Source: Celeribacter sp. PS-C1 (GTDB taxonomy: Bacteria > Pseudomonadota > Alphaproteobacteria > Rhodobacterales > Rhodobacteraceae). From it: a stretch of DNA of 64,000 bases. The notes beneath the pieces were generated by a model. The model was not told the DNA's origin, made no database searches, and was given only the letters and a program-made list of their open reading frames with translations. How positions within the stretch are numbered: position 1 is the stretch's first letter; every line of letters starts with the position of its first letter. Positions 540 through 23,917 of the stretch are shown one piece after another. The translations under genes were made by a program, and so were the position numbers. Location: contig NZ_JAHXRW010000004.1 in NCBI RefSeq assembly GCF_019429625.1, positions 310,001 to 374,000 of the forward strand, given 5' to 3'.

Positions 540-557
540 ATCCGAAAGACAGACATG

Positions 558-586: not shown

Positions 587-605
587 ATTGATGGACAGTT
601 ACAAC

Positions 606-1163: not shown

Positions 1164-1662
1164 CGGCGGCCACTTTCATGGAGATCATCGCATCCGGATA
1201 CATCGGCGGCTCGCCACGGGTGATCTTGTCGACGGCGTCCATGCCGGAGATCACGCGGCCATAGACCGTGTACTGACGGTTCAGGAAGTGGTTGTCGGAA
1301 AAGTTGATGAAGAACTGCGAGTTGGCGGAGTTCGGGTTTTGCGAACGCGCCGCACCGATGGTGCCGCGATCATGCGGAATGCCGGAGAATTCGGCCGGAA
1401 GATCCGGCAGATCAGAGCCGCCGGTGCCTGCGCGACGCAGCTCGAAATCCTTGTTTTGGTTGCCGAATTTCACGTCGCCGGTCTGCGCCATGAAACCGTC
1501 GATCACGCGATGGAACACCACGCCGTCATAAGCGCCGGAACGGGCCAGTTCTTTCATCCGCTCGCAATGCTTAGGCGCGATGTCGGGCAGAAGCTCAATG
1601 ACCACTTCGCCGCCTTCGAGCGTGATGATGATCGTGTTTTCAGGGTCTTTGATGTCGGCCAT
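1156..1662 (-). CDS. Cytoplasmic cyclophilin-type peptidyl-prolyl cis-trans isomerase
   Basis: 168 residues when started at the ATG at 1662 (MADIKDPENT). A longer open frame exists upstream but runs into the pgk promoter region and lacks family similarity. It has no signal peptide. The cyclophilin signature FHRVIDGFMAQTGD and the NSANSQFFIN pocket segment are present. It is the first gene of a two-gene (-) unit with the secreted paralog, sharing an 8-nt overlap. The unit is divergent from pgk, with about 200 bp of shared promoter space. Confidence 0.93.
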   Translation of the reverse strand: MADIKDPENTIIITLEGGEVVIELLPDIAPKHCERMKELARSGAYDGVVFHRVIDGFMAQTGDVKFGNQNKDFELRRAGTGGSDLPDLPAEFSGIPHDRGTIGAARSQNPNSANSQFFINFSDNHFLNRQYTVYGRVISGMDAVDKITRGEPPMYPDAMISMKVAADA

Positions 1663-1864
1663 GACTGGCTCCTCCGAATAGAAAACCGTCTGCAAAACGG
1701 TCAAAATTTGCCGCAGTTTAATCTGCGTAGAGGGCAAGGGAAAGGGCGATCTCGCCTCTCCTTTCCCGGATCGCGCCCGTGAGCGGTCACGGCGGTTGAC
1801 GAAGCGGTGATCAGAGTTCAAACAAGTGTCAGATGTCAAAACCTCCCCGAAAGGACCGACTGCT

Positions 1865-3052: not shown

Positions 3053-3057
3053 ACATC

Positions 3058-3086
3058 AAGGCCCGCCGAGTTTGGCGGGCCTTTTC
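3058..3086 (+). terminator. Rho-independent terminator after pgk
   Basis: A perfect 10-bp GC-rich stem (3058-3067 with 3074-3083), 6-nt loop and T-run lie 6 nt after the pgk stop codon. Confidence 0.9.
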
Positions 3087-3330
3087 ATTTCCGCCCAGCC
3101 TCTTCTTGATACAAAAAGCGGCCCTGAAAGGCGCATTTGCGCTGTATCAAGACGTTGCCGGGAAAAGCGGCATAGCGTGCCGTCGAGACAAGCCCTGCGC
3201 GCCACCTGCAAGAGATTCCAGAAAGTTAGCGCCACCAAGATTGCGACAGACCGCCGGGCAAGGTAACTCGGTGAGTGAGAACTGAAAGCCCTCGGGACCG
3301 AGGGGGATTTGAGTCAAAAAGAGGAATGAG

Positions 3331-4224
3331 ATGTCTATTCAAGAAATGACCGCCAAAATGGGCGAAGGCCAAGGCTTCATCGCAGCACTTGACCAATCGG
3401 GGGGCTCCACGCCCAAGGCGCTCAAACTCTACGGCGTCGAGGAAAGCGAGTATTCTGGTGACGACGAGATGTTCGACATGGTGCACGCCATGCGCTCGCG
3501 CATCATCCAGTCGCCGTCTTTTACTGGCGACAAGGTGATCGGCGCGATCCTCTTTGAGATGACCATGGACCGCGAAGTGGGCGGCAAACCGACCTCTCTG
3601 TTCCTCTGGGAAGACAAAGGCGTGGTGCCTTTTCTCAAGATCGACAAGGGGCTCGAATCTGAAGCCAATGGCGTCCAACTGATGAAGCCGATGCCGGGTC
3701 TCGATGACCTTTTGGCACGTGCCGCCAAGCTCAAGGTCTTTGGCACGAAAGAGCGTTCGGTGATCAACGCCGCCAATCCGGAAGGCATCAAGGCCGTCGT
3801 GGACCAACAATTCGAGATCGGCGAACAGGTAATCAAGGCCGGTCTGATGCCGATCCTTGAGCCAGAAGTGACCATCACCATCGCGGACAAAGCCGAGGCA
3901 GAAGCGATCCTGCGCGAAGAAATCCTCAAGCATCTCGACGCCATGGACGAAAGCAAACAGGTCATGCTGAAGCTGTCCCTGCCGACCGAGGCCAACTTTT
4001 ACAAGCCGCTGGTGGACCACCCGCGCGTGTTGAAGGTCGTGGCTCTGTCGGGCGGTTACGGTCGCGATGAGGCCAATGACATCCTGTCGAAAAACACCGG
4101 CATGATCGCGTCCTTCTCCCGCGCTCTATCCGAAGGCCTGAACGCCAAGCAAAGCGACGCGGAGTTTGACGCCACGCTGAAAGCCGCAGTCGACAGCATC
4201 CAGGCGGCCTCCATCGCAGGCTGA
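3331..4224 (+). CDS. Fructose-bisphosphate aldolase, class I
   Basis: 297 residues. It cleaves fructose 1,6-bisphosphate to DHAP and glyceraldehyde 3-phosphate (reversible). The N terminus carries the family segment FIAALDQSGGSTPKAL, and the MLKLSLP segment around residue 214 supplies a candidate Schiff-base lysine. This is the short bacterial class I family, which does not use a metal. It is preceded by AAGAGGAATGAG-type ribosome binding sequence and followed by a terminator, so it is probably monocistronic although functionally paired with pgk. Confidence 0.93.
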   Translation: MSIQEMTAKMGEGQGFIAALDQSGGSTPKALKLYGVEESEYSGDDEMFDMVHAMRSRIIQSPSFTGDKVIGAILFEMTMDREVGGKPTSLFLWEDKGVVPFLKIDKGLESEANGVQLMKPMPGLDDLLARAAKLKVFGTKERSVINAANPEGIKAVVDQQFEIGEQVIKAGLMPILEPEVTITIADKAEAEAILREEILKHLDAMDESKQVMLKLSLPTEANFYKPLVDHPRVLKVVALSGGYGRDEANDILSKNTGMIASFSRALSEGLNAKQSDAEFDATLKAAVDSIQAASIAG

Positions 4225-4248
4225 TCTGCGCCGAAGAAGTTTCTCGAT

Positions 4249-4275
4249 AGGGCGTCCCAGATGGGGCGCCCTTTT
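4249..4275 (+). terminator. Rho-independent terminator after the aldolase gene
   Basis: The stem AGGGCG/CGCCCT is extended by TCCC/GGGG (with a G-T pair) around a 4-nt loop and followed by TTTT. Confidence 0.85.
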
Positions 4276-4688
4276 CGCATGTAAAACGCGCTCCCCCACG
4301 CCCTGAGTTCGGCCCATCCACGTCCTTCGCCTCGCAAAAACGAGGTGAGTCGCGCCGCCCACGCCCCGCCACAAGCCCGAAAGAGGTGGGAAAGATATGT
4401 GCATTTCCTCACTGGAACCCGGTCGCGAAAACCCTGTAACACTTTTACGAACATATATGCTGCATTTGCGAAATCACATCGCCGTTTCATCAGCGTAAAT
4501 CCGCATCCTGCGCATAGAATCCCACTTGCGCGATGGACAAAAAAGGTCAAAAGGCGTTGAGATTAGGAGGAATTCCGCCCGCATTAAGCAGCATTCCGCC
4601 AGAGACACCCTAAGATTGGCATTTTGTGCTGCACAGCAAAATTGACGCCCTATTTACCCTCCAGACCCTGACATCACGGAGTGCCAGT
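4276..4688. other. Intergenic region upstream of the opg operon
   Basis: About 410 bp with no convincing gene. The short open frames on both strands lack ribosome binding sites and protein-like composition. GC falls towards the right half, as expected of a promoter region for opgG. A small CCTCG/CGAGG stem with an A-rich loop lies at 4330-4345. I cannot assign -35/-10 elements with confidence. Confidence 0.5.
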
Positions 4689-6356
4689 TTGACGATTCCC
4701 GCCGGTTCCGCCGCAACCCTTGAGACTTCCCCTGACAATCTGCGCCGCCGCCGGTTTCTATCGGCTATGGCAGGCTCCGTTGCCCTCTCTGCGGTAATGC
4801 CCTCTTTGCTCTTGGCCCAAGAGGCCGAAGTTCCTGCGACCGAGGCTCCTAACGTAGAGCCCGCACCTGCGGAACCTGTCGCGGCCCCCGAGTTTCCGCC
4901 TTTCAGCTTTGATGCACTCTCTGAGGAGATGCGCAAAGCGGCCGGTGAGAATTGGCACGAGGCGGAGAAGATCGAGGGCGCGCTCGCGGGGCTCGATTAC
5001 GATGCTTACCAACGCATCCGCTTCCGCCCCGACCACGCCCGCTGGCAGGATGAAGGACAGGCCTTCCGGCTGCACGCCTTTCACCTCGGGTGGCTGTTCA
5101 AAGAACCGGTGCATATTTTTGAGATCGTGGATGGCCGTGCCCAGCCGATGGAGTTCTCCACCCATGACTTCGAATATGGTGGCAATGTCAGCGAACAGAT
5201 CCCCGAAGACACGCCGATGCCGGGTGTTGCGGGCTTTCGCCTGCACAACCCGCTCAACCGCGCCGATATTTTCGACGAGCTGATCGCATTCCTGGGCGCG
5301 AGCTATTTCCGCGCTCTGGGTCGGGGGACGGTCTACGGCCTCTCCGCACGTGGGCTCGCGGTCAACACCGCCATGCAGGGCGGCGAGGAATTTCCGCGCT
5401 TTACCGATTTCTGGATCGAACGTCCGATGCCGGGCGCCCATCAGATCACGGTCTATGCCGCCCTCGACAGCCAATCCGTGACCGGCGCTTACCGCTTTGT
5501 CATCACCCCCGGTGAGGACACCGAGATGGAGGTCTCCGCCCGGCTGTTCCTGCGCGAAAAGACCGACCAGATCGGCATCGCGCCGCTCACCTCAATGTAT
5601 CTCTTCGGCGGGGCCGATCCGCGCGGCTTCGACGATTTCCGCGCCTCTGTGCATGACAGCGAATATCTCGTGCTCAACACCCGAGGCGGCGAGACTTTCC
5701 TACGCGCTCTAAACAACCCGCCGCGTCTGGCGAGTTCTTATCTGGGCGCGGAGAACCCGCTGTCTTTCGGCCTCGTCCAGCGCAGCCGCAATTTCGACGA
5801 TTACCTCGACGCGCAGGCGCATTACGAACGCCGCCCGTCCTTGATGGTTGAGCCGATTGGCGATTGGGGCAAGGGCACCGTGCGCTTGGTGGAAATCCCG
5901 TCGAAACTTGAGGGCAATGACAATATCGTCGCATTCTGGGTTCCAGACGGAAAGTTCGACAAAGGCGCGGCGCTTGAATATGCCTACCGGCTGCACTGGG
6001 GCATGGACCCCAAAGGGGACCGCAGCGTCGATCGCGCCCGCATCCTGCGCACCCGCGTGGGCGAAGGCGGCGTGGCCGGCGTCGAACAGAAAAGCGATAC
6101 CCGCAAGTTCGTGATCGATTTCGGGGGCGGCGCTCTGTCGACCCTGCCTGCCGATGCCGTGCTTGTACCCGAAGTCAACAGCGGCCGTGGTGTCATCACG
6201 CAGGCGATCGTGAGCAAGATCAGCGGCACAGACATCTGGCGCCTTGTGATCGAGGCCAAGACCGATCCCGGTAGCGTGGCGGAACTAAAAGCGGCCCTCG
6301 CGGGTTATGGACAGACTTTGACGGAAACGTGGCTTTACCAATGGATGAGGGAATGA
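4689..6356 (+). CDS. opgG: Periplasmic glucan biosynthesis protein OpgG (MdoG)
   Basis: About 555 residues. OpgG is a periplasmic protein needed to build or branch osmoregulated periplasmic glucans (OPGs). A twin-arginine signal (RRRRFLSAMAG) is followed by a short Ala/Pro/Glu linker and then the MdoG fold. The start is uncertain: the TTG at 4689 has a GGAG sequence 7 nt upstream and is preferred over a GTG at 4626 that has none. Its stop overlaps the next small gene by 4 nt (ATGA). It is the first gene of opgGIHC. Confidence 0.92.
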   Translation: MTIPAGSAATLETSPDNLRRRRFLSAMAGSVALSAVMPSLLLAQEAEVPATEAPNVEPAPAEPVAAPEFPPFSFDALSEEMRKAAGENWHEAEKIEGALAGLDYDAYQRIRFRPDHARWQDEGQAFRLHAFHLGWLFKEPVHIFEIVDGRAQPMEFSTHDFEYGGNVSEQIPEDTPMPGVAGFRLHNPLNRADIFDELIAFLGASYFRALGRGTVYGLSARGLAVNTAMQGGEEFPRFTDFWIERPMPGAHQITVYAALDSQSVTGAYRFVITPGEDTEMEVSARLFLREKTDQIGIAPLTSMYLFGGADPRGFDDFRASVHDSEYLVLNTRGGETFLRALNNPPRLASSYLGAENPLSFGLVQRSRNFDDYLDAQAHYERRPSLMVEPIGDWGKGTVRLVEIPSKLEGNDNIVAFWVPDGKFDKGAALEYAYRLHWGMDPKGDRSVDRARILRTRVGEGGVAGVEQKSDTRKFVIDFGGGALSTLPADAVLVPEVNSGRGVITQAIVSKISGTDIWRLVIEAKTDPGSVAELKAALAGYGQTLTETWLYQWMRE

Positions 6357-6553
6357 CTGTGACGCGAGCTTCTCAACAGACCGAATTTGATATGGGCACT
6401 GATATGAACCCCGACGCACATCTGGATGCGGCTCAAAATTGGCTGCCGCCCGAGGCACCGCTTGAGATGCCGCGCCAGGTTCTTGAGCGCGAAACTCGGC
6501 GCACCGAATGGCCCCGCCTTCTGCGCCTGATCCTGCCCGGCAAAGCCGTCTGA
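6353..6553 (+). CDS. opgI: Small protein OpgI-like, between opgG and opgH
   Basis: 66 residues; the ATG overlaps the opgG stop codon (ATGA) and the stop lies 17 nt before opgH, so it is coupled to the operon. It has no signal peptide or membrane segment. The visible core is a Pro-rich LPPEAPLEMPRQ stretch followed by a basic tail. In Rhodobacter sphaeroides the operon is opgGIHDC (from memory), with a small opgI of unknown role at exactly this position, so the name is by synteny. An alternative is a detached N-terminal piece of OpgH, whose homologues elsewhere carry a long cytoplasmic N-terminal extension. Confidence 0.7.
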   Translation: MTVTRASQQTEFDMGTDMNPDAHLDAAQNWLPPEAPLEMPRQVLERETRRTEWPRLLRLILPGKAV

Positions 6554-6570
6554 GGCCGAGAGACAAGATC

Positions 6571-8379
6571 ATGTCCTCTTCGCCTCGCAAGGCCGCGCGC
6601 AGGGCCCTGCCCGCTGATGCCCGCACCAAGCTGATCCGCACGCTGGCCCTGAGTTTCGCACTTTTGGCGGCGCTCACCGCCTCTACGCTTTTGGCCGATG
6701 CCGCCATTCAGGATGGTGTTGACGTCTGGGACGTTGTGCGCGGTGTGTTGATCTTTGTGACCACCGCCTGGCTCGCCTGGGGGGCGACGCTGTCTTTCGT
6801 CGGCCTCGCACCGCGCGTCGGCAAACGCCGCCCTGCGCCGGAGTTGCAAACCCCTGCCCCGCGCCTTGTCGTCTTGGTGCCGATCTGCAACGAAGACCCG
6901 GTGACGACCTTTGCCCGCATCGCCGCGATGGATCAGTCGATCCGCGCCGAAGCTCTCGCCGCCGACATCGCGATCCTGTCTGACACCCGCAATGATGAAT
7001 CTGCGCTTTTGGAGCGTCAGACCTATCTGCGCCTGATCCGCGAGACGCACGGAGAAGGTCGCATTTTCTACCGTCGTCGCGACGACAATCGGGGCCGCAA
7101 GGCGGGCAACATCGAAGAATTCATCCGTCGCTCCGGCAGTGCCTATGATTTCGCGCTGATCCTCGATGCCGACAGCCTGATGGAGGGCCGCGCCGTGCGC
7201 GAGATGGCCGCCAAGATGCAGGCCGACCCGAAGCTTGGCCTGTTGCAGACCCTGCCGAAAATCATCGGTGCGCGGTCGTTCTTTGGCCGGGCGATGCAAT
7301 TCGCGGCGAGCTTTCACAGCCCGATCTTCACCCGTGGCCTTGAGCGACTTCAGGGCAACACAGGTCCTTTCTGGGGTCATAACGCCATGGTGCGGGTCAA
7401 TGCCTTTGCTGAAAGCTGCGCTCTGCCGGAACTGGCGGGACCGCCGCCCTTTGGCGGGCATATCCTCAGCCATGACTATGTCGAAGCCGCGCTTTTGGCG
7501 CGCGGTGGCTGGCGCGTGCAGGTCGATCACACCATCAGCGGCTCGTTCGAAGAAGGCCCCGAAAACATCCTGTCCTACGCCAAACGCGACCGCCGCTGGT
7601 GTCAGGGCAACCTGCAACATTCCCGGCTTTTGCTGTCTCCCGGCATCGCGGGCTGGTCCCGGTTCGTGTTTTTGCAGGGTATCTTTGCCTATCTCGTTTC
7701 CGTGCTCTGGGCCGCTTTCCTGATCACCTCTGTGGTGGCGACAATCCTTGCACCGGTGCCAAATTACTTCCCCGAACCGCATATGCTGTTCCCGGTTTTC
7801 CCGGACGACCGGACCAAGGAGATCACCGCGCTGATCGTGGGCATCATGGGGCTTTTGATCCTGCCAAAATTCGCCATTCTCTATGAGGCCTCTGGCACGC
7901 GGCGCACCGCGCGGTTTGGCGGATCGCTTCGTGCAGGTTTCTCGGTTGTGGCGGAGATTTTACTGTCCTCACTGATCGCACCTTTGATGCTGATGTATCA
8001 AACCAAAGCCGTGCTTCAGGTGCTCTCCGGTCGCGATGGCGGCTGGCCCGCCAACCAGCGTGGCGAAGGCGCTTTGACCTTGATGGAAGGCTTCCGCGCC
8101 GGGCTTTGGATCATGCTCACAGGCGGCGCGGCGCTGGCTTTGGTCGCCCGTGTGGCACCCGATCTGACGCTTTGGCTCCTGCCCGTCTGTCTGCCGATGT
8201 TGGCAGCGCCTTTCCTGATCGCATGGACCTCGCGTCCGCTCACACATGCCCTGTTTCTGGTGCCCGAAGAGCGCCGCCCTGCCCCGGTGATCCGCAGCTA
8301 TCGCGAGATCCTTGGCCGTTGGCAGGCGGAGCCGCGCGCAGATGTGGCATCCCCGGAGGTGACCCATGTCCCGGCATGA
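6571..8379 (+). CDS. opgH: Glucans biosynthesis glucosyltransferase OpgH (MdoH)
   Basis: 602 residues from the ATG at 6571. It is an inner-membrane processive GT2 enzyme that polymerises glucose from UDP-glucose into the OPG backbone. Two N-terminal membrane segments precede the catalytic domain, which shows PICNED, D199-A-D201 in LDADSLMEG, and the KRDRRWCQGN acceptor-site motif. Several membrane segments follow. It is shorter at the N terminus than the enterobacterial enzyme, consistent with the separate small gene just upstream. It overlaps opgC by 14 nt. Confidence 0.94.
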   Translation: MSSSPRKAARRALPADARTKLIRTLALSFALLAALTASTLLADAAIQDGVDVWDVVRGVLIFVTTAWLAWGATLSFVGLAPRVGKRRPAPELQTPAPRLVVLVPICNEDPVTTFARIAAMDQSIRAEALAADIAILSDTRNDESALLERQTYLRLIRETHGEGRIFYRRRDDNRGRKAGNIEEFIRRSGSAYDFALILDADSLMEGRAVREMAAKMQADPKLGLLQTLPKIIGARSFFGRAMQFAASFHSPIFTRGLERLQGNTGPFWGHNAMVRVNAFAESCALPELAGPPPFGGHILSHDYVEAALLARGGWRVQVDHTISGSFEEGPENILSYAKRDRRWCQGNLQHSRLLLSPGIAGWSRFVFLQGIFAYLVSVLWAAFLITSVVATILAPVPNYFPEPHMLFPVFPDDRTKEITALIVGIMGLLILPKFAILYEASGTRRTARFGGSLRAGFSVVAEILLSSLIAPLMLMYQTKAVLQVLSGRDGGWPANQRGEGALTLMEGFRAGLWIMLTGGAALALVARVAPDLTLWLLPVCLPMLAAPFLIAWTSRPLTHALFLVPEERRPAPVIRSYREILGRWQAEPRADVASPEVTHVPA

Positions 8380-9580
8380 CATCGCGGTGCCGAATGAGTT
8401 GGCCCAGCCGGTGAAACGCCCGCGAGATCCGCGGATCGACGCGTTTCGCGGGCTGGCGCTCTTGATGATCTTCATCGACCATTCGCCGCACAATCCCTAT
8501 GAATATCTCACCGTGCGCAACATCGGCTTTTCCGACGCGGCGGAGGCGTTTTTCATCATGTCCGGCGTTGCCGCCGGTCTGGCCTACACCGGCCGGTTCG
8601 AGGCCCGTCACGAGAAAGGCCTGTGGCAGGCCATGGCGCCGATGTGGAAACGCTCCTGGACGCTCTATCTGGTGCAAATCCTGCTGACCTCTCTGGCCAT
8701 CGCGATCTTTGCCGCAGGCGCCACATGGTTTGGCGTCGACGAGTTGCTGACCAAAATCAACCTCAGGCAGGTGTTCAACAACACCGCCGAGGCGCTCATC
8801 GGCATTCCTCTACTGGGGCATCAGCTTGGCTATGTGAACATTCTGCCCGCCTATTCGGTGCTGTTGTTTTGCGGGCCCTTGATGATCCTCTTGGGGCTCT
8901 GGCGGCCCATGTTGCTTTTGGGGCTGTCGGCCGCGATTTGGCTCGCGGCGGGCATTTGGCGGATCAACCTGCCGAATTACCCCAATCCGGGCGGCTGGTT
9001 TTTCAACCCTGTCGCGTGGCAATTCATCTTTGTCGTCGGGCTTTTGACGGGGATTTTCCTGCGTCGGGGCGAACGCTTTTTGCCGAAAACGCCGTGGCTC
9101 TTTTGGCTCGCGGCCGGGTGGCTCGCGGTGGTTCTGGCATGGCGCTATGTGCCGGAATTCGGGCCGTTCATGAACCATCAGATGGCGGTTCTGGGCAAGG
9201 CGGGCCTGCCGTTCAACATGGTATCGCATGACAAGACCTTCCTCGCCCTGCCTCGTATGACCCATGCTCTGGCGCTGGCCTATGTGTTGTCCTGCCTGCC
9301 TTGGGTGACACGTCTGACCGGCTCGAAAGCGCTGTCGTTCTTGCGGCTGTTGGGGCGTCAGGGCCTTTTGGTTTTCGCAGCGGGCACGGTGCTGGCGCTC
9401 TTCAACCATGTGATCATGGGCTATTACGCGGAGGCAGAGTGGCTCGGGTGGGTGCTCCTACCCTTGGGCGCATTGATCCTGATCGCGGTCGCCTGGCTGG
9501 GCGATGTTCAGAAGTCTGCAAAGCGCAAAACCGCCGCGCGTCAGGTGGAGGTTGCGGCACCGCCCCTGCCTGCAGAGTAA
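8366..9580 (+). CDS. opgC: OpgC-like membrane acyltransferase for periplasmic glucans
   Basis: 404 residues with about ten hydrophobic segments. The N terminus carries the acyltransferase-type opening RIDAFRGLALLMIFIDHSP and FFIMSGVAAGLAY, characteristic of the OpgC family. In R. sphaeroides OpgC adds succinyl groups to periplasmic glucans (established knowledge); the same role is inferred here from family and position as last gene of the opg operon. The start overlaps opgH by 14 nt. There is no opgD between opgH and opgC, unlike in R. sphaeroides. Confidence 0.88.
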   Translation: MSRHDIAVPNELAQPVKRPRDPRIDAFRGLALLMIFIDHSPHNPYEYLTVRNIGFSDAAEAFFIMSGVAAGLAYTGRFEARHEKGLWQAMAPMWKRSWTLYLVQILLTSLAIAIFAAGATWFGVDELLTKINLRQVFNNTAEALIGIPLLGHQLGYVNILPAYSVLLFCGPLMILLGLWRPMLLLGLSAAIWLAAGIWRINLPNYPNPGGWFFNPVAWQFIFVVGLLTGIFLRRGERFLPKTPWLFWLAAGWLAVVLAWRYVPEFGPFMNHQMAVLGKAGLPFNMVSHDKTFLALPRMTHALALAYVLSCLPWVTRLTGSKALSFLRLLGRQGLLVFAAGTVLALFNHVIMGYYAEAEWLGWVLLPLGALILIAVAWLGDVQKSAKRKTAARQVEVAAPPLPAE

Positions 9581-9779
9581 CACGCAAGTGTATTCAGGCC
9601 GCGCACAATCCGTTTCAGCATTTTTTTGCAGATGATTCGTTTTTGGGATTCACAGCGCGAATCGCCTGTGGCATAAGAGGGTTACGGAGGGGTTCCGCCA
9701 AAGAGAACGCCCCGTGAGGCAGTACAGGTGATCTGACTCCGGTCGGGCATCTTTCATACAAAAAGGTAAGAAGCCTATC

Positions 9780-10082
9780 ATGGCTCATCCGCGTAAACGC
9801 CCCTCGCTGGCTGTGCTTTTGTACGTCGGCGTGATGGTCACCCTCGGTGGCTATTTCACCTTTGCATCCGTGCAAGGGGAGTATGGGCTGTTTCGCCGCT
9901 TGCAGATCGAGGCAGAATTGTCCGAGTTGCAAGCGGTGAGCGGCAAACTCGACGCGGAGCTGGCCGTGATGCGCAACAAGACTTTGCGCCTGTCCGACAG
10001 CTATCTCGATCTCGACCTTTTGGATGAACAGGCACGCGATGTTTTGGGCTATCTTCGTGCCGATGAGATTGTGATCCGCTGA
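9780..10082 (+). CDS. ftsB: FtsB/DivIC-family septum formation protein
   Basis: 100 residues: a short basic cytoplasmic N terminus, one membrane helix (about residues 12-29), and a periplasmic heptad-type coiled coil (about 38-75). This is the architecture of FtsB/DivIC, which bridges FtsL and FtsQ in the divisome. AAAAAGGTAAG provides the ribosome binding site. A small transglycosylase-like gene follows and pdhABC lies further on. Sequence similarity in this family is weak, so the call rests on size, topology and context. Confidence 0.75.
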   Translation: MAHPRKRPSLAVLLYVGVMVTLGGYFTFASVQGEYGLFRRLQIEAELSELQAVSGKLDAELAVMRNKTLRLSDSYLDLDLLDEQARDVLGYLRADEIVIR

Positions 10083-10114
10083 CATCCAGACATCCCCTGC
10101 CCGAAAGGCAAAAG

Positions 10115-10735
10115 ATGACACAGACAGCCAATGACACCGCACCGTTTTTGACCCGCCGCCGGATGATTTTGGGTGGCACGGGTCTTTTGGCGTTGTCGGC
10201 CTGTGGCGGTGGCTATGGCGGCGCGCCTGCGAACCCCGAGGATGCCTGCGCGATCTTCCGCGAGCGCCCGCATTACCAAAGGGCGCTGGAGGCCTCCGCA
10301 CGCAAATGGGGTGTGCCGGTGCATGTGCAAATGGCGCTGATCTATCAGGAATCCACCTTCCGCGCGACCGCCCGCCCACCGAAACGCTATGTCCTGTTCA
10401 TCATCCCGAAAGGCCGGGCCAGCTCCGCCCGCGGCTATGCGCAGGCGCTCGACGGCACATGGGACGACTACCGCAACGGCCCGGGTCGCGCAGGCGCCAG
10501 CCGCAGCAACATCCGTGACGCCACCGATTTCATCGGCTGGTATGTCTCGACCAACAACGCCGCCTTGGGGATTACCAACACCGACGCCCGCAACAGCTAT
10601 CTGGCCTATCACGAAGGCCGCACAGGATACCGGCGCGGATCGCATAATGGCAAGACGTGGTTGCTGAATGTGGCGGATGGGGTGGCTGCGCGCGCGGCGC
10701 GCTATGAGGCGCAGCTGGGGTATTGTAGTCGGTGA
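10115..10735 (+). CDS. Small lytic-transglycosylase-like lipoprotein
   Basis: 206 residues. A Tat-like signal (RRRMILGGTGLLALSAC) ends in a lipobox cysteine, so the product is probably a periplasm-facing lipoprotein. The mature part starts with an SLT-like segment, YQESTFRA, where the Glu is the candidate catalytic acid of lysozyme-like transglycosylases, followed by ARGYAQALDGTWDDY. It would act on peptidoglycan, and it sits next to an FtsB-like gene, which fits a cell-wall role. A second, smaller relative lies at 32008-32478. Catalytic activity is inferred, not shown. Confidence 0.7.
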   Translation: MTQTANDTAPFLTRRRMILGGTGLLALSACGGGYGGAPANPEDACAIFRERPHYQRALEASARKWGVPVHVQMALIYQESTFRATARPPKRYVLFIIPKGRASSARGYAQALDGTWDDYRNGPGRAGASRSNIRDATDFIGWYVSTNNAALGITNTDARNSYLAYHEGRTGYRRGSHNGKTWLLNVADGVAARAARYEAQLGYCSR

Positions 10736-10759
10736 GCGGCGTTAGGCCGCTTCAAACCG

Positions 10760-11080
10760 TTACGGCAAGTAGTCCCGCGCGAAAATCATCAGCAAGCCAA
10801 CAATTGAAAAGAGCATTGCATAACTCGCCACAACATACGCAAGGGCCTTTAACCACTTTTTCCGCAACTCGGGAAATATCTCCCCCGCCAACAAGCGACT
10901 AAAATTATTCTGCGGACTTTTGGGGTCAGCGAGAGCTTTCCATGGTACGTACGAAATATGCCCCTCTGATATTTTAAACATCGTGGAAATAACTTTCGAC
11001 TGCCAAAAGAAGAAAATGCCAAACGCAATAACAGCATTGGCAAACGATACAAAAACAAGAGCATAAACGAGAATGGCCAT
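10760..11080 (-). CDS. Hypothetical two-helix membrane protein, AT-rich
   Basis: 106 residues with a hydrophobic helix at each end (about residues 3-27 and 80-102) and a basic loop between them. No family is recognised. Base composition is clearly lower in GC than both flanks, and codon use includes many AT-ending codons, which suggests recent acquisition. No good ribosome binding site is visible before the ATG. It is convergent with the preceding lipoprotein gene, only 24 nt away. It could be a real small membrane gene or a decaying import. Confidence 0.45.
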   Translation of the reverse strand: MAILVYALVFVSFANAVIAFGIFFFWQSKVISTMFKISEGHISYVPWKALADPKSPQNNFSRLLAGEIFPELRKKWLKALAYVVASYAMLFSIVGLLMIFARDYLP

Positions 11081-15988: not shown

Positions 15989-16807
15989 TCAGGCCTTTTC
16001 GCCGCGTGCACCAATCAGTTGGTTCATCGAAATCGACGGCTGGGAACAGCCAGCCTCACCCACGACTTTGGCGGGAACACCCGCGACCGTGGTGCAATGC
16101 GGTACATCATTGAGGACGACAGAACCCGCAGCGACGCGAGAGCAATCGCCGATCTTGATATTGCCGAGCACCTTGGCGCCTGCGCCGATCAGGACACCGT
16201 CGCCAATTTTCGGGTGACGGTCTTCGTCCTCTTTGCCGGTGCCGCCGAGCGTCACGGAATGCAGGATCGAAACATTGTCGCCGATCACAGCCGTCTCGCC
16301 AAAGACCAAAGCATGGGCGTGGTCGAGGAACAGCCCCTTCCCGATGCGGCAGGCGGGGTGAATGTCGACGGAGAATTGCTCGGACATGCGCATCTGGAAG
16401 AAATAGGCCAGATCGCGGCGACCTTCGCGCCAGAGCCAGTTGGAAACGCGATGGGCTTGGATCGCCTGGAAGCCTTTGAAATAGAGCAAAGGCTGGATGT
16501 AGCGATGGCAGGCCGGATCGCGGTCGTAAACGGCAGCGATGTCGGCACGCGCAGCCTCAGAGAGCATCGGATCGCCCGAATAGGCGTCGTCGGCAATCTC
16601 GCGAATAAGCTGTTCGGACATCTCGGGAGAGGCAAGTTTCTGCGCGATCCGATAGGCCAGCGCATCCTCCAGCGTCTCGTGATGCAGGATACAGGCATGG
16701 ACCAACCCACCCAACAGAGGCTCGGCCTCAACGGCTTGCCGCGCCTCGGAGACGATCTGGCTCCAGACGGGATCGAGTTTTTTCAAAGTGGTGCGTGTCT
16801 TGGCCAT
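15989..16807 (-). CDS. cysE: Serine O-acetyltransferase
   Basis: 272 residues, the usual CysE length. It makes O-acetylserine from serine and acetyl-CoA, the carbon skeleton for cysteine. The N-terminal helical domain is followed by the left-handed beta-helix of hexapeptide repeats. The conserved DIHPACRIGKGLFLDHAHALVFGE-type region (histidine of the catalytic centre) is present, as is the C-terminal tail that interacts with cysteine synthase. The gene lies immediately downstream of the collapsed GTA locus. Confidence 0.95.
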   Translation of the reverse strand: MAKTRTTLKKLDPVWSQIVSEARQAVEAEPLLGGLVHACILHHETLEDALAYRIAQKLASPEMSEQLIREIADDAYSGDPMLSEAARADIAAVYDRDPACHRYIQPLLYFKGFQAIQAHRVSNWLWREGRRDLAYFFQMRMSEQFSVDIHPACRIGKGLFLDHAHALVFGETAVIGDNVSILHSVTLGGTGKEDEDRHPKIGDGVLIGAGAKVLGNIKIGDCSRVAAGSVVLNDVPHCTTVAGVPAKVVGEAGCSQPSISMNQLIGARGEKA

Positions 16808-16951: not shown

Positions 16952-17668
16952 TTATTCGTAGGGCAGTGAGAATTGGACACAGTGGATGGCGAGGCGGATC
17001 ACTCCGCCTGCATCGAAATCCCCGCCCTCTCCGGTGAGGATCAGATCCTCGGAGGCATAATAGGTCAAAGGCGTGCCGGTGAGACCGCGCAGCCAGCTGC
17101 CTTGTGAGAGCGAAAGACCTGAGCCGTAGCGGTTCGAAGACCCCGCCACACCAAGCGAAAAGCCCGTGAGCCCGCTGCCGGTGATGTCGCTGAGAACCCG
17201 CCCTGTGACGCCATAGACGACGGATTGTCCGGGGAGCGCAAAGCTGGCCGCAGAGGTGGTGCCGGCGGTTATCGTGTGATCGATCTCGATGACACGCTGC
17301 ACCATGCCCGCACCATTTGCGGAGAGGGTCTGAAGGCCCAGCACCCAATCCGCGCCATCATATCCGGCCCAGCCATTTTGATCCGCGATATAGGCGCGCA
17401 TGCCCAAAGTGGCGGGCACAAACGCCCAGCCGCCGTTGACATACAGCGAGATCATCCCCGCCTGACCGGACCAGTCCTTGACAGGGGCGGAGCCCACACC
17501 GTAAGCGTCGCCCTCTTGCGGCGTCAAAGGCGGTGTGTTGCCGGTTACGGAGAGGAGCGTGAGCTGCATCAGCCCGTCGATCCGGCTCAGCGCCTCATTC
17601 ACGGTCACATGTTTCTGGGCCTGCGCGGCCTCGATCAGCGGCAGGGCAAAACGGGTTGTATCACTCAT
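16952..17668 (-). CDS. DUF2793 protein associated with GTA tail genes
   Basis: 238 residues from the ATG at 17668. The N terminus, with RFALPLIEAAQAQKHVTVNEAL, is the DUF2793 signature found in phage and GTA tail regions; the rest is Gly/Ser/Thr-rich beta structure resembling a tail fibre or adhesin-like appendage. The start overlaps the stop of the terminase/gp15 chimera by 8 nt, as expected if it was the gene following gp15 in an ancestral GTA cluster. The gene is intact. A role in particle attachment is inferred from family and position; without capsid genes it cannot act in a particle encoded here. Confidence 0.8.
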   Translation of the reverse strand: MSDTTRFALPLIEAAQAQKHVTVNEALSRIDGLMQLTLLSVTGNTPPLTPQEGDAYGVGSAPVKDWSGQAGMISLYVNGGWAFVPATLGMRAYIADQNGWAGYDGADWVLGLQTLSANGAGMVQRVIEIDHTITAGTTSAASFALPGQSVVYGVTGRVLSDITGSGLTGFSLGVAGSSNRYGSGLSLSQGSWLRGLTGTPLTYYASEDLILTGEGGDFDAGGVIRLAIHCVQFSLPYE

Positions 17669-20177
17669 TGATCTCAATCCTTTTGAAGAGGCCCGCGCCG
17701 AAGCTTTCGGACATTTGGGCAACGTGGATTTCATAAGCGCCGGTCAGACCGTCGCTGGTTTTCTGAGAGGCCGTGTAGGTCCAGCTTGTGGAGCCGGTGG
17801 TAACTTCGCGTAGAATGGCGCCGTCCTTGATGACCCGGACGAGGTAGAGCTCATAGCTTTCACCCAGTGGCACCTCAAAGGATTGCCAACTGTCGCCATC
17901 GATACGCGTTCGCCGCACCCAACTCACCGCCGTGCCGCCCGTCCCTGTCGGCACCGCTTGGAGATGCGCGGGCGCATAGGGCCGCAATCCGATGCCATCG
18001 AAAGCCTCGACATAGTGGCTGAAGCTCGTGTCATCATAGGCCCGGTTCGACGGCCCGATCCGGTAGTGACGCGCCAGACCACGGGACGACTGCGGCAGAT
18101 CAAGCTGACGCAATGTCGTGTCGATCAGCACAAAGCGCGAGCCCGCAGGCCAGCTTTGCGTCTTATCGCCCGTGTCCAGACCATCCGTACCAGCCTGCCC
18201 GCGAAGGCGCAGCGAGATGTCGTAGGTGTTCTCACCCACGATCTCGGCATTGGCGAATTGGAACACCTCCCAATTGGACGAGGTGCCATCGCCGATGGCC
18301 GCGACATTGGCGCCATTGAGCACATCAAGCGGGTCGACCGAGGACAATTCCCCCCGTGTCAGTTTGACCCGCAGCACAGAACCGCGATCCCAGAGGCCGG
18401 GTTTGGCCGCATCAAGTGCAGTCTGCGTGACCCCGATTGTGGCCCAGCTCGGCACCAGAGTGTTGAGCGTATAGCCACTGTCCGACGCCGACGCATAGAC
18501 CGCCGCAGAGCCCGGCCAAGGATTGGCCGTCACCGCGATATGCGGTGTGTAAGGCACCTCGTCTCCGGTCAACAACGGCAAGTCAAGGAACAACGGATAG
18601 ACCGGCACAGGCGCGGAGAAGGCCTTGGCCTCGATGATCTCTTCGACCATGTCGGAAGGCTCATAGACCTCCTGCTCGACCCGCACGGCTTCGATCTGTT
18701 GCTGTTGACCAAGGGTGGCGTGATCGACGCGGTAGCGCAGCGTGCCCTCTTCGGTCTCGACGCTGATCACATCGCCCGCGCCATAGGACATGAGCGACGG
18801 CGACAGGGAGAACCGTGCCGTATCCCGCGCAATCCGCGCCTCGGAGAGCCAGCGCTCGACGATCTGGCGCCCCTCGGCCCGCGTGAGTGCAAGAGGCAGT
18901 TCGGATTGCGACACCAGACGGCTTGCCTCATCCGGGAAGATCGCCTCCTCGGAGCGCGCCGCATAATCGCCGTCGGCATCGACAAAGGTCAGCTGAACGC
19001 GGCCAGCGACCTCGGCCTCAGGCGCACGGACGCGCTCGAACAGACCGTCCAACTCGTCGGAAACCGCAAAATCCGTATCCGCCAGCGTCAGCTGCGATTT
19101 GCCATCCCGCGAGCGGAAGATCAGTTGCCCCTCACGCTCGACGGCTTCGAAACCATAGGCCAGCATCAAGGGTTGCAGCGCCGAACGCGCCCCCGCGATG
19201 TCGTTGACGTTATAGCCCCGGAGCACGCCCCAAAGCTCGGTTGTGTCGATCTCTTTCACGCCGGACCGCACGCAGATTTCGGTTACGACATCGGCCACAG
19301 ACCGCGCGGTCGAACGCCCGTTGAGCCAATGCCCCTTGGCGTAACTGTCGCCATCGGACCACACCGCCGTGACCGACGGAAACGCCGGATAGGGCCGCGC
19401 GTCCCACGCCCAGACATGGGCACGGGTCATGTCGATCATCGGGCCGTCATAGACCTCGGAGGTCGGGTTGTTCTCATCCTCGCCCCAATAGCCGGTCATC
19501 GCCCGGATGTACTGAAGCTGGATGAAATCATCCCGCCGCCCGTTAGAATAGGCCGGAAGTGCGCTTTCCGAGGATTTCGCATCCAGAAACTTGTTCGGCT
19601 CATTGGTGCCCTTGTCGATCGCGGCACAGCCCAGTTCATCGACCCAGGCCGCATCGAATTGCGGCCCGCGCAGCGCCTCAGGATCATTACCGGAAAACAC
19701 GGTGGCCTCCGCCCCGTTGGGCCAGATCAGCGTTCGTCGCGTCGCATGCCATGTCGGTCGCCGGTCGGGGGGCGAACAGGCCAGAATGCCACTGTCGCCA
19801 AACACCATCACCTCGCGCGCCTGATCATAGGTCTCGCCGATCAACGCCACCCGTTTCGCGCGGCCTCTTTGTGTCGCCCGGCTTCCCTCAACCATCGACC
19901 GCACCCATTCGGAGCCCGCGCGCGTTTTGCCTGCACCGCGCCCGCCCATGATCACCCATGTGCGCCAATCGCCCTCCGGCGGCAATTGGTGATCCAGCGC
20001 CCAAGCCTCGAAGAGGTAAGGGAGCGCCATAAGCGCCCCCTCCCCCAACGTGTCCAAAAACTCACGCTGTGTCTCTGGTGGCTCTGAGGCGAGCCAGCCG
20101 ATCAAGGATCTCAGATTTGGCGGCGTCAAAGTCGATCTCTCCGCCGCCGAGCTCTCCGCTTTTGCGTTTGTGCTCAT
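17661..20177 (-). CDS. In-frame chimera: GTA large terminase N-terminus fused to GTA gp15 (tail/host-specificity) C-terminus
   Basis: 838 residues with no stop. Residues 1-182 are a terminase ATPase half: WVIMGGRGAGKTRAG (Walker A about 78-85), ETYDQAR, DPEALRGPQFDAAWVDEL (Walker B about 174-181). From about residue 181 the chain becomes GTA gp15: ELGCAAIDKGTNEPNKF, KSSESALP, the VWAWDARPYPAFP segment at the end of the TIM-barrel domain, then the phage-tail_3-like and C-terminal regions. The terminase nuclease domain, all capsid and most tail genes, and the gp15 N-terminus are missing. A good AAAGGA site precedes the ATG at 20177, which overlaps terS by 116 nt. This is a relic of a deletion; any function of the chimera is unknown. 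Confidence 0.85.
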   Translation of the reverse strand: MSTNAKAESSAAERSTLTPPNLRSLIGWLASEPPETQREFLDTLGEGALMALPYLFEAWALDHQLPPEGDWRTWVIMGGRGAGKTRAGSEWVRSMVEGSRATQRGRAKRVALIGETYDQAREVMVFGDSGILACSPPDRRPTWHATRRTLIWPNGAEATVFSGNDPEALRGPQFDAAWVDELGCAAIDKGTNEPNKFLDAKSSESALPAYSNGRRDDFIQLQYIRAMTGYWGEDENNPTSEVYDGPMIDMTRAHVWAWDARPYPAFPSVTAVWSDGDSYAKGHWLNGRSTARSVADVVTEICVRSGVKEIDTTELWGVLRGYNVNDIAGARSALQPLMLAYGFEAVEREGQLIFRSRDGKSQLTLADTDFAVSDELDGLFERVRAPEAEVAGRVQLTFVDADGDYAARSEEAIFPDEASRLVSQSELPLALTRAEGRQIVERWLSEARIARDTARFSLSPSLMSYGAGDVISVETEEGTLRYRVDHATLGQQQQIEAVRVEQEVYEPSDMVEEIIEAKAFSAPVPVYPLFLDLPLLTGDEVPYTPHIAVTANPWPGSAAVYASASDSGYTLNTLVPSWATIGVTQTALDAAKPGLWDRGSVLRVKLTRGELSSVDPLDVLNGANVAAIGDGTSSNWEVFQFANAEIVGENTYDISLRLRGQAGTDGLDTGDKTQSWPAGSRFVLIDTTLRQLDLPQSSRGLARHYRIGPSNRAYDDTSFSHYVEAFDGIGLRPYAPAHLQAVPTGTGGTAVSWVRRTRIDGDSWQSFEVPLGESYELYLVRVIKDGAILREVTTGSTSWTYTASQKTSDGLTGAYEIHVAQMSESFGAGLFKRIEINE
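19629..19640 (-). other. Deletion junction between terL and gp15
   Basis: The codons for D180-E-L-G183 sit where terminase sequence (AAWVDEL, Walker B) passes into gp15 sequence (ELGCAAIDKGTN). Both parent proteins have Glu-Leu at the corresponding place, so a short shared DNA word probably guided the deletion. The exact crossover base cannot be fixed without an intact relative. Confidence 0.7.
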
Positions 20178-20388
20178 CGAGACGTTTCCTTTCGTCGAAT
20201 GAGGTGTTCAGCGCCTTGTTGAGATCCGCCATGTGCTTGGCGATGTCCTTCGCCGCATCCGGATCTCCGGCCTCAACACCGAGTATGGCCTCGTTGACGG
20301 CCCCGATCGCCCGGAGCACGCTCTGGTCGGCAATCTTCACCAGATTGTCCAACCCGTGTTCATCCCCCACAGATGAAGTCACTTTCAT
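20062..20388 (-). CDS. terS: GTA small terminase-like protein (gp1/TerS)
   Basis: 108 residues, mostly helical and highly charged (AKDIAKHMADLNKALN, SFDERKRLDEHKRKSG). Size, position immediately upstream of and overlapping the large terminase fragment, and helical content match RcGTA gp1, which was recognised as a small terminase (established knowledge, from memory). It would bind DNA ends during packaging together with TerL. The gene is intact and has a GAGAGG ribosome binding site, although its partner is truncated. Confidence 0.75.
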   Translation of the reverse strand: MKVTSSVGDEHGLDNLVKIADQSVLRAIGAVNEAILGVEAGDPDAAKDIAKHMADLNKALNTSFDERKRLDEHKRKSGELGGGEIDFDAAKSEILDRLARLRATRDTA

Positions 20389-21485: not shown

Positions 21486-22676
21486 CTATTCCACGGCTGT
21501 GCCGAACAGCGTTACCATGGCCGCGATTACCGTCACGGCGACGAAAAAGGCGATATGGATGGCTGATTTGCCAGCACGGCGCGCCAGCACTACGGCGATG
21601 GCGCCCTGCACCGTGTAATAGGCGGCAAAGGCCTTGGACGCCCAGGAAATGATCTGGAAGACGTCGAGGCCCCATGTGATCATAAGGCCCAAGGCGACCA
21701 GCCCGGCATAGCCGATTTTCACGGGCACCCGGCCCTTGGTCAGTTCCTCAACCAGCCCACCCGCACCGGAAGTGTCCGCCACAGCCGCCGAGAACTGCGC
21801 CGCGAGCGCCGCGATCACCAGCATCATCGGCAACACCGGCGCAACGATCCGCATCATGTCGATAATGGCCGTTTCCGAGGTCTCGATCTGATCGGGACGG
21901 AATACATAGGCCATGAGCAGCACGTAGATCATGTAGATCGCCGCCGAGACCCATTGCGCAATGCGCATCGAGCGGATGCGGGTCTTGGCGTCGTACTCCT
22001 CGCCCAGATAGTGCGAGGTTTCAAAGCCCTGCACCGTGACCACAAGCCCGAACAACAGGCTCAGCGCTGGCCAGCCCGTCAGGCTCGCGGGCGTCACGAT
22101 CAACGCCTCAGTGCTGGCTTTCTCCGCGAAAAACCATGCCAAGCCGACCAAAAGCCCGGCAATAATCGACAGTTTCAGCCCGACAGACACCTGTTCCAAC
22201 CGCTCCAATGCCGAAAACCCTTTGGTCCAGCCGGTGATCAGGATCACACCAAACACCGCACTGGTCACCAGACGCGCCGCAACCTCCGTGTCCCATGGCG
22301 TCAGACTGACAGCAAAGGCGCCCAAAAGGTTGAGATAATAAGCGACCGAAATCACATAGGCGAAGGACAGCACCCAAGAGGCCAGATGTTCGAGCCGACC
22401 GCTCAGCGCATCATGTCCGCGCTCGTCCAATGCCGCGATATTGAACCGCACCGCAGCGCCGATCGCATAGGCCAAGAGACACAAAAGCGCCATCGCCAGC
22501 GGTGTCCACGCCCCGTAAGCCTGCGCCAAAATAGGTCCCAAAACCAGAAAGCCCGATCCTATGATCGAGGCCAATGGCGTCACAGTCGCTTTCCAAAGCT
22601 GTGCCTGCGCCAGCCGCGGCCAACTCAAAAGCCCCGCCACCAAAAGCGTCATGGCAATAATGGCACTGGTTTCCAT
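21486..22676 (-). CDS. APC-superfamily amino acid/polyamine-type transporter
   Basis: 396 residues from the ATG at 22676, which has AAGGA 8 nt upstream; a longer frame to 22727 would run through the mltG terminator. It has ten to twelve hydrophobic helices. The first two membrane segments are separated by the APC-like motif ASIIGSGFLVLGP, matching the unwound helix 1 of LeuT-fold carriers, and ITGWTKG and LLFGLVVTVQGFE follow. The substrate is unknown. It is downstream of mltG but separated from it by a terminator, so it is probably transcribed on its own. Confidence 0.75.
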   Translation of the reverse strand: METSAIIAMTLLVAGLLSWPRLAQAQLWKATVTPLASIIGSGFLVLGPILAQAYGAWTPLAMALLCLLAYAIGAAVRFNIAALDERGHDALSGRLEHLASWVLSFAYVISVAYYLNLLGAFAVSLTPWDTEVAARLVTSAVFGVILITGWTKGFSALERLEQVSVGLKLSIIAGLLVGLAWFFAEKASTEALIVTPASLTGWPALSLLFGLVVTVQGFETSHYLGEEYDAKTRIRSMRIAQWVSAAIYMIYVLLMAYVFRPDQIETSETAIIDMMRIVAPVLPMMLVIAALAAQFSAAVADTSGAGGLVEELTKGRVPVKIGYAGLVALGLMITWGLDVFQIISWASKAFAAYYTVQGAIAVVLARRAGKSAIHIAFFVAVTVIAAMVTLFGTAVE

Positions 22677-22689
22677 CGTCTCGTCCTTA

Positions 22690-22726
22690 AAAAGCAAAAG
22701 GGCGCAGCCTCGCCGCGCCCTTTTCA
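22690..22726 (-). terminator. Rho-independent terminator after mltG
   Basis: A perfect 10-bp stem AAAAGGGCGC/GCGCCCTTTT (22696-22705 with 22715-22724), 9-nt loop, between mltG and the APC transporter gene. Confidence 0.88.
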
Positions 22727-22741
22727 TATCGTCTCAATAGC

Positions 22742-23917
22742 TTACTGGCTTGCGCGTTCGGCTTCGATCTCGCGCCATTTGGCGACATTGGCGTTATGTT
22801 CCACCAAGGTCTCGGCAAAGGCGTGCCCGCCCGAACCATCTGCCACAAAGAACAGATAGGGCGTCTCATCCGGGTTCACCGCCGCCTGCATCGCCTCAAG
22901 CCCCGGGTTGGCAATCGGTCCCGGCGGCATGCCCTCAATCACATAGGTGTTGTAGGGGCTGTTCGATTGCAGCTCCGACTGACGCAAACCGCGCCCCAGC
23001 ACGCCGACACCATTGGTCACGCCGTAAATCACCGTCGGGTCCGTCTGAAGCCGCATGCCACGACGCAAACGGTTCTCGAACACAGAAGCCACCTGACGGC
23101 GCTCTTCCGCCAGCCCGGTTTCCTTCTCGATGATCGAGGCCATGATCAGCATCTCTTCCGGCGTGTCGAACGGCAGGCCATCGACACGCGCCGCCCAGAC
23201 CGTGTCGATCCGCTGCTGCTGCGCCGCTTCCATGCGAGCAATCAGGTCGTCCACATCGGAGCCTTCGCGCACTTCATAACTATCGGGCGCCAACATGCCC
23301 TCTGCAGGCATCTCGTCCGTCTCGACAGAGCCGGTCATAAAATCAGCCGCTTTGAGGCTTTCAACGACGCGCCACACGGTGGTGCCCTCGGCCACCAACA
23401 CGCGATAGCGCGTGTCCGCCTCGGACCGCACCTTGGTATATTCAGCCGGAATCTCCTGAACCGCGTCGCTCTCTGCGATGGGTTCGAACTCGGCGGTTTC
23501 AACATAACTGCCGGTCTGCGGATCCAGTTCACGCACCTGAATTTCGGCGCGGTTCACACCGATGCGGTAAACCACCTCGGTGCCACAAGTCGACGCACCG
23601 CCACGGGTGATTTGATCAATGATCTCCACCATGGAGGCGCCTTCCTCAACAAGGAAAGACCCGGCCTTAAGTTCTTGTGACTTCTCAGAATACTCGGCAC
23701 CGATACGGAAAATATGCGCATTGGAAATCGCGCCTTGATCGGCCAGATTTTCGGACACCCGCCGCATGGTCGAGCCCGACGGCACACGCAGACAGATCGC
23801 CTGATCAAGAGGTCCTTGAGCAGAATATTCCCGTTTGCCCCAAGCCACCGCCCCCGCCAAAGCGACGAGGGCGACGATGAAGAGGGTCAGCGCATTCGAG
23901 GCGATGGATCGCCACAT
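22742..23917 (-). CDS. mltG: Endolytic murein transglycosylase MltG
   Basis: 391 residues. One N-terminal membrane helix (about 8-27) anchors a periplasmic YceG/MltG domain. Visible landmarks are the LysM-like start (LRVPSGSTMRRVSENLADQGAI region), the catalytic ASIIEKETG with its glutamate, and RRQVASVFENRLRRGMRLQTDP. It cleaves nascent glycan strands and helps set their length. It starts 1 nt after the fabF stop codon; this fabF-mltG order is common in proteobacteria. A terminator follows. Confidence 0.95.
   Translation of the reverse strand: MWRSIASNALTLFIVALVALAGAVAWGKREYSAQGPLDQAICLRVPSGSTMRRVSENLADQGAISNAHIFRIGAEYSEKSQELKAGSFLVEEGASMVEIIDQITRGGASTCGTEVVYRIGVNRAEIQVRELDPQTGSYVETAEFEPIAESDAVQEIPAEYTKVRSEADTRYRVLVAEGTTVWRVVESLKAADFMTGSVETDEMPAEGMLAPDSYEVREGSDVDDLIARMEAAQQQRIDTVWAARVDGLPFDTPEEMLIMASIIEKETGLAEERRQVASVFENRLRRGMRLQTDPTVIYGVTNGVGVLGRGLRQSELQSNSPYNTYVIEGMPPGPIANPGLEAMQAAVNPDETPYLFFVADGSGGHAFAETLVEHNANVAKWREIEAERASQ

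Follow-up and report, generated by a model that had tools for sequence, protein, structure and literature searches.

A TerL-megatron fusion gene in place of the gene transfer agent particle genes of Celeribacter sp. PS-C1, and its recurrence across genera

What does a gene transfer agent (GTA) locus become once its particle genes are lost, and why should the gene left behind read through the gap in one open frame? This question is raised by a stretch of 64,000 nucleotides from Celeribacter sp. PS-C1 (NCBI RefSeq assembly GCF_019429625.1, contig NZ_JAHXRW010000004.1, positions 310,001 to 374,000), hereafter the window. Here an open reading frame (ORF) of 838 amino acids joins the start of the GTA large terminase TerL (gene g2, terL) to the end of the GTA tail protein called the megatron (g15, Rcc01698). 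The genome of the window, coded G000, was compared with two congeners, G001 and G007, which carry the whole cluster unfused. The same in-register fusion was found to recur across genera, and the explanations for this recurrence were weighed against each other.

The fusion gene and the deleted block

Profile searches assigned the two parts of the ORF to different families. Pfam placed Terminase_6N at fusion residues 76-182 (profile 2-105 of 215, E 1.2e-14), the end of GTA_TIM at residues 172-267 (profile 204-299 of 299), Phage-tail_3 at residues 330-486 and Rcc01698_C at residues 579-683. The NCBIfam model GTA_megatron (NF048004) aligned its positions 640-1298 with residues 173-835 and scored 781.7 bits, below the curated cut-off of 800. 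A profile search of the PDB matched the C-terminal part to residues 644-1302 of the megatron of RcGTA, the Rhodobacter capsulatus GTA (6tba/6teh, E 7e-287). The TerL-derived part comprises residues 1-181, over which it is 97% identical to G001. Together with the congener alignment, these results confirmed the sequence-only reading in its main claim, a chimera in a single 838-codon frame at the place given in Table 1, with a terminase N-terminal part followed by a gp15-like tail protein. Its description of the first part as an "ATPase half" was only partly right: Walker A and Walker B of TerL are both present, but they belong to the first portion of the ATPase fold, which ends at Walker B. A TerL has an ATPase N-domain and a C-terminal nuclease, whereas here Terminase_6N ends at profile position 105 of 215 and megatron sequence follows. 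ATPase activity of the chimera is putative at most. The megatron part holds the end of the peripheral/TIM domain, a central hub-like domain and a fibre-binding domain, named as in PMC7296036.

Read base by base against G001 and G007, terL ..TGGGTCGATGAACTGG and g15 ..TGGTTCACCGAAATGG join as ..GATGAA/CTG/GGCTGT.., and the switch point lies at about 19631-19635 of the window, precise to a few bases. In both congeners terL, g3-g14 and g15 are all present and are bordered by the genes that border the fusion in the window, mltG, a transporter gene and g1 on one side and the DUF2793 gene and cysE on the other, so that the place of the locus is the same. Compared with them the window lacks about 12.1 kb, passing from TerL residue 182 to megatron residue ~660. 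Searches of the rest of G000 did not turn up the missing block: when a 12.3-kb stretch of G001 was used as DNA query, the best match beyond the two junction flanks was 24 bases long (40 of 97 candidates scored), and the capsid and portal proteins of G001, the members of g3-g14 that were searched singly, had no match at E up to 10. The same two proteins do match congeners by tblastn. The chimera itself matches once in G000, and the g3-g14 genes that mark an RcGTA-like cluster were not detected there by these searches. Because two congeners keep the cluster at the same locus and the block is absent elsewhere in the assembly, it is near certain that the particle genes were deleted and that terL was thereby fused in frame to g15. 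The proposal that a deletion had fused two flanking genes between terS and a DUF2793 gene was therefore borne out, and both neighbours were identified by Pfam as well as from the congeners, where the intact cluster lies between them.

Recurrence of the join across genera

The chimera was used as query against 394 genomes of the family, representing 393 genera. Single-stretch matches over its full length came from at least 13 other genomes, of which G347 has an internal stop. A closer check of 26 surveyed genomes yielded two more, G372 and G174 (the latter matching as far as a contig end), bringing the number of other genera to 15. The junction was read in 14 of the 15 (all but G372) and always had the form ..LRGPQF..AWxDE/xGC.A.D[KR]G.N.. 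with the join at the same residue; in the 13 end-to-end matches, residue 192/193 of terL in the tblastn query meets g15 residue 661 every time. Both mltG and cysE lay beside the fusion in 12 of these 13, and only cysE was detected in G105.

A degenerate junction pattern was also scanned against the genomes of 84,980 species. It returned 68 matching stretches, all of which proved to be true fusions by translation. The pattern contains the Walker B DE and requires its D, so joins placed otherwise are missed; the family survey had no such requirement, and DE was read independently in all 14 of its junctions. The 68 named matches and the G-coded ones overlap (L065, for example, is G172), and the counts are not additive. 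With G001 proteins as tblastn queries, no match to g3-g14 was obtained around the 68 fusions, in stretches of at most 8 kb from which distant homologues could escape. These results showed that the fusion is not the singular novel protein that had been supposed, since it is present at the same residue in 15 other genera and in 68 named genomes. The pattern had no match in IMG/VR, a result of little weight because loci of this kind might not be classed as viral.

Of the 68 named fusions, 11 belong to a Hyphomicrobiales type, judged by name or position in the tree. Six fusions of this type are 32-36% identical to G000, and the Mesorhizobium fusion that was tested has the same Pfam joint, from Terminase_6N 105 to GTA_TIM 204. 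Neither mltG nor cysE was seen in the stretches around the 11. Both genes are also missing beside the fusion in L074, L077 and L101, long Rhodobacterales stretches from Roseivivax and Roseovarius pacificus in which the fusion locus may have moved, and for this reason their absence alone is no proof of another locus for the Hyphomicrobiales type. Six of the 11 (L111, L097, L080, L103, L083 and L075) have a common downstream gene of 219-224 amino acids with 75-95% identity, a response regulator in L111, and all of these except L075 have a common further gene, histidine-kinase-like in L111.

The number of origins was estimated on a protein tree of the megatron C-terminal half with 119 rows, 69 fused and 50 without this fusion; four rows were dropped as short or unmatched, and G003, G016, G022 and G435 among the 50 have other cluster losses. 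This tree was built by a quick method with SH-aLRT support only, and every tree here uses one gene half, so that recombination could mislead. The 119-row tree required 19 changes of fused status, 13 of them forced by well-supported branches, and placed the window as sister to unfused G001 with 99% support. Among 54 Ruegeria genomes, 10 were fused, 34 had terL and g15 12.2-14.6 kb apart, eight had other losses and two were split over contigs. The megatron tree of 30 Ruegeria rows needed 5 changes (4 forced), and the terL-N tree of the same 30, poorly resolved, needed 9 (3 forced). In Roseicyclus, the genus of G412, three of 13 genomes were fused, in three separate places (3 changes, 3 forced); Silicimonas (G252) and Aliiroseovarius (G276) were represented by one and two genomes. 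As far as one gene half can tell, fused and unfused GTA loci interleave on the megatron tree. The Hyphomicrobiales-type fusions formed two deep clades of fused rows only, and fused-only clades were seen in the Devosia (6 rows), Mesorhizobium (5), Silicimonas (4) and Roseovarius (4) groups, a weak observation, since only fused genomes of these groups were sampled.

Immediately after the join, 31 of the 68 fusions have L and the others Y, I, F, M or T. Since this residue is the F of the local g15, not the L of the local terL, in Roseicyclus and the L of terL in the window, the crossover points hint at slight differences among fusions, as separate events would give.

Retention of the chimera and competing explanations

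The fused frame was open on both sides to the limits of the stretch in 60 of the 68 fusions, and 40 of the 68 were complete open ORFs. Walker A, GGRG[AS]GKT, was present in all 63 fusions that cover the site; of the other five, three are cut at the stretch end and two (L066 and L074) have a short 5' frame. A TerS-like ORF overlapped the 5' end of the fusion in 48 of the 56 loci with enough upstream DNA. In two Ruegeria (L126, which is G456, and L091) the open fused frame reaches about 470 codons upstream beyond where it usually begins, giving a frame of 1310 codons.

The ratio of nonsynonymous to synonymous substitution rates (dN/dS) was compared between fused and unfused pairs. In Ruegeria, the median for the terL N-terminal part was 0.068 in fused and 0.073 in unfused pairs, and that for the g15 C-terminal part 0.097 and 0.099, respectively. 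Outside Ruegeria the ratios were mostly within the range of unfused pairs and mltG, but NG86 dS is saturated in many pairs, which makes cross-genus ratios weak. When neutral drift of an ORF of this length was simulated 1000 times at each divergence, the frame remained open in 14 runs at 0.05 substitutions per site and in none at 0.2. The end branches of a four-species fused clade of Ruegeria are 0.19-0.26 changes per site long; if this clade had one fused ancestor, its frame has outlasted simulated neutral drift. The broken frame and the dN/dS near 1 of a neutral pseudogene were not what was found, the Ruegeria medians being 0.07-0.10, within the limits that the ages of the fusions set on such an inference.

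The explanation that we favour, which is not proven and falls a little short of being probable, is that the in-register join formed repeatedly and independently and was kept, together with TerS, as a working protein. In the window a deletion of about 12.1 kb took TerL residue 182 to megatron residue ~660 and left one frame. The same join, TerL ..W-x-D-E to x-G-C.. megatron, stands in many other GTA loci; on this explanation it would have arisen again in separate lineages, which would retain the chimera for its work alongside the TerS partner. Its TerL part has Walker A and Walker B without the remaining ATPase fold and the nuclease, and its C-terminal part has the domains responsible in RcGTA for binding to the tail, the hub and the fibres. 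The particle-less remnant could then engage TerS and tail or terminase partners as a decoy. In RcGTA, TerS binds the ATPase domain of TerL (L27-V258), not the nuclease (PMC6854486), and the central megatron domain binds distal tail and hub proteins while the last domain holds the fibres (PMC7296036). By analogy, and given that the TerS gene is kept, the chimera may bind TerS. Interference with the assembly of GTAs or GTA-like phages, in a lineage that is free of the cost of making GTAs and still able to receive them, would be the most economical function, because the TerS-facing ATPase part and both megatron domains are kept and there is no nuclease, iris helix or particle; as a specific role it is possible but doubtful. 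The broader proposal, a domesticated TerS plus TerL-N::megatron-C system that two alphaproteobacterial orders reached convergently through the same in-register deletion and keep as a functional protein, for example for blocking such assembly in recipient cells, is possible but less likely than not. The PADLOC models found no family in the fusion, g1 or the DUF2793 protein.

Several observations weigh against a kept, working protein. In eight of the 68 the frame looks truncated or interrupted on at least one side. The dN/dS of the TerL part is raised in some fused pairs, to 0.25 and 0.34 in close pairs and up to 1.1 in distant ones with saturated dS; for comparison, one unfused pair reaches 0.25 and mltG 0.39. 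Amino-acid change is raised in the megatron half along the branch to G000, with 32 synonymous and 13 nonsynonymous changes versus 50 and 5 for G001 (Fisher p 0.017). Low dN/dS could also have been inherited from the time before fusion, should the fusions be young; in Roseicyclus, three fusions sit apart within one genus. The predicted structure (alignment of 41 rows) has mostly good confidence at residues 290-838 and low confidence at Walker A and across residues 182-215, which include the junction, and it shows no joined domain across the junction. Fusions also seem rare outside the family, as a class-wide draw of 385 genomes gave G000, G090 and G534 as likely fusions among the matches listed. 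Moreover, selection by itself does not obviously require one exact residue.

One rival explanation is a mutational hotspot without function, in which two sites make the exact deletion frequent through microhomology (W..E.G), a nuclease or DNA structure, and young GTA-negative "cheater" carriers die out while the ORF still looks conserved. The two sites do share an in-register W..E.G, as DNA TGG......GAR...G, the junction run is 7-8 bp in 5 of 19 Ruegeria, the Roseicyclus fusions lie near the tips, and pseudogenised GTAs have been discussed as possible recent cheaters (PMC10883770). Such likeness is nevertheless common within these genes. In six unfused congeners, 1,833 to 142,614 of ~5.3-5.6 million terL x g15 site pairs match as well or better over 17 bp, and in the 19 of 20 Ruegeria without the fusion that could be tested (on part of terL), where the junction run is 4-8 bp, 68 to 8,992 in-frame exact runs are equally long. 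Synonymous junction bases vary among fusions, and no DNA motif is conserved beyond the codons for the shared residues. The ranking of site pairs disfavours microhomology as the sole cause, and we consider a hotspot rather unlikely. That the join is in frame might be explained by polarity on cysE, but this is weakened by the finding that cysE1 of R. capsulatus is on a separate transcript (PMC9552610).

It is somewhat unlikely, too, that one or a few ancient fused alleles spread by homologous recombination while local unfused DNA, for instance in short GTA-borne fragments unable to restore the 14-kb cluster, replaced their halves almost as far as the junction. Such spread would account for one exact junction across diverged sequences whose halves track the host genus, and for the kept TerS and the unfused-like dN/dS without any function of the chimera. 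The shortest flanks give it some room and count against independent formation: within 45 bp of the junction, on either side, 3 of 12 fused rows have their nearest sequence in another genus. That nearest row is itself fused in four of the six cases, among them Thioclava for the terL side of the window (1 vs 2 differences) and for the g15 side of one Ruegeria (1 vs 4 differences). These resemblances may be chance, since the region codes conserved residues. Further out the picture reverses, with the own genus nearest on each side in 11 of 12 rows (one tie) at 90 bp and in 12 of 12 at 150 bp; no donor tract at the junction was found at 90 bp or more, and a very short shared tract (<90 bp) is possible on these alignments. 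Nor are fused rows of Ruegeria closer to one another beside the junction: the mean distances at 90 bp are 0.12 for fused and 0.10 for unfused rows in the terL flank, and 0.23 and 0.18 in the g15 flank. G000 is identical to unfused G007 across the final 34 bases of the terL side and the first 50 compared bases of the g15 side, and the divergence of the six Hyphomicrobiales-type fusions from G000 requires at least one further origin. Old vertical inheritance, by which each clade descends from a fused ancestor and its unfused relatives regained the cluster, could draw on the fused-only clades and on the flanking gene that Hyphomicrobiales-type fusions of both groups share, but it must accommodate the sister relation of G000 to an unfused genome and the several changes within Ruegeria and Roseicyclus, and many regains of a 12-kb block would be costly; we regard it as very improbable. 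An assembly or database artefact is hardly credible. The evidence is assembled sequence and many matches are metagenome-assembled or draft genomes, yet 68 separate named records, some of them from isolates with long contigs, show the same in-frame join, congeners without the join exist, and the missing block could not be found in G000.

The locus among other GTA losses and known systems

The coordinates of the fusion gene, its parts and its neighbours are listed in Table 1.

Table 1. Features of the fusion locus, in positions of the window.
Feature	Position	Strand	Basis or remark
TerL-N::megatron-C fusion gene, 838 aa	17661..20177	-	Pfam, NCBIfam, congener comparison
TerL-derived part, residues 1-181 (Terminase_6N, Walker A to Walker B)	19635..20177	-	coordinates from reading frame
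Walker A GGRGAGKT, residues 78-85	19923..19946	-	motif read in fusions
Walker B strand end WVDE, residues 178-181; final TerL residues ahead of the join	19635..19646	-	congener comparison
Junction codon, residue 182, Leu CTG	19632..19634	-	same as terL CTG; congener g15 has ATG, ATC, TTC, TTA or CTG
Megatron (g15)-derived part, residues 183-838	17664..19631	-	Pfam, NCBIfam, PDB profile
g1 (GTA small terminase, TerS), 108 aa, overlaps fusion 5' end	20062..20388	-	97% to G001 g1
DUF2793 gene, downstream neighbour	16952..17734	-	Pfam and congeners
cysE, downstream flank common with unfused congeners	15989..16807	-	congeners
Transporter-like gene, upstream flank common with G001 and G007	21486..22727	-	congeners
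mltG/yceG, upstream flank common with G001 and G007	22742..23917	-	congeners

In the genus of the window, one of 20 genomes was fused at this junction, and G016, G003 and G019 carry other deletions. In G016 (L017, ~7245-9715), g3 1-115 runs on in the same frame into g15 from 614, and the frame changes later, near g15 1213; in G003 (L019, ~8804-9997), g5 to 217 is joined in the same frame to g11 37 onward. The deletion in G019 (L023, reverse strand) is out of frame, from terL 422 to DUF2793 158, as is one in G022 (L018, ~5701-9808), from terL 381 to g15 285. Two clusters are otherwise complete: in that of G006 (L020, ~3800-10950) terL and g3 are separated by ~7 kb of extra DNA, and in that of G018 (L022, ~4471-4700) terL is interrupted close to its start (TGA, two overlapping frames). 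Extra full-length megatron-like genes of ~36-38% identity were seen in G008 (G008:C1:1849585 and 1916062, which score identically) and at three extra places in G448; these are perhaps related prophages. The likely fusions of the class-wide draw in G090 (G090:C1:1951746-1954020) and G534 (L239) both cross the junction, the former with its frame broken near query residue 400 and the latter at a contig end.

Compared with known systems, the locus resembles the RcGTA-like head-tail cluster (g1-g15) in having the flanks of unfused congeners, g1, the start of TerL, the end of the megatron and the DUF2793 gene, and differs from it by the loss of g3-g14, the TerL nuclease, the megatron iris, the adhesin and most of the peripheral domain; it is unable to build a particle. 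The fusion agrees with the GTA large terminase in its first 181 residues and Walker motifs, whereas a tail protein replaces the remaining ATPase fold and the nuclease. It agrees with the megatron in its alignment to NF048004, while the N-terminal half is missing and the score is below the cut-off. As a GTA locus that no longer makes particles it is comparable to the pseudogenised or lost clusters of Alphaproteobacteria (PMC10883770). Unlike these, and unlike the differing deletions in the same genera, its exact in-frame join is repeated, with the frame, the P-loop and TerS mostly kept.

GTA loss, pseudogenisation and non-producers as cheaters are already in print (PMC10883770). No report of this fusion was found in the literature searched, which left out most subscription papers. 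A TerL survey excluded partial sequences by design (PMC7947584), and a coevolution study dropped incomplete GTA regions (PMC10883770), so that fused genes would be passed over in both.

The usual picture of how GTA production is lost is one of haphazard decay. In the present case a single precise rearrangement turns up in different genera and orders, and what it leaves behind is mostly an open, conserved gene plus its partner. Either a new protein has repeatedly been made from the same two genes, or some process makes or spreads one exact 12-kb deletion, and both alternatives bear on how GTA producers and non-producers coexist.

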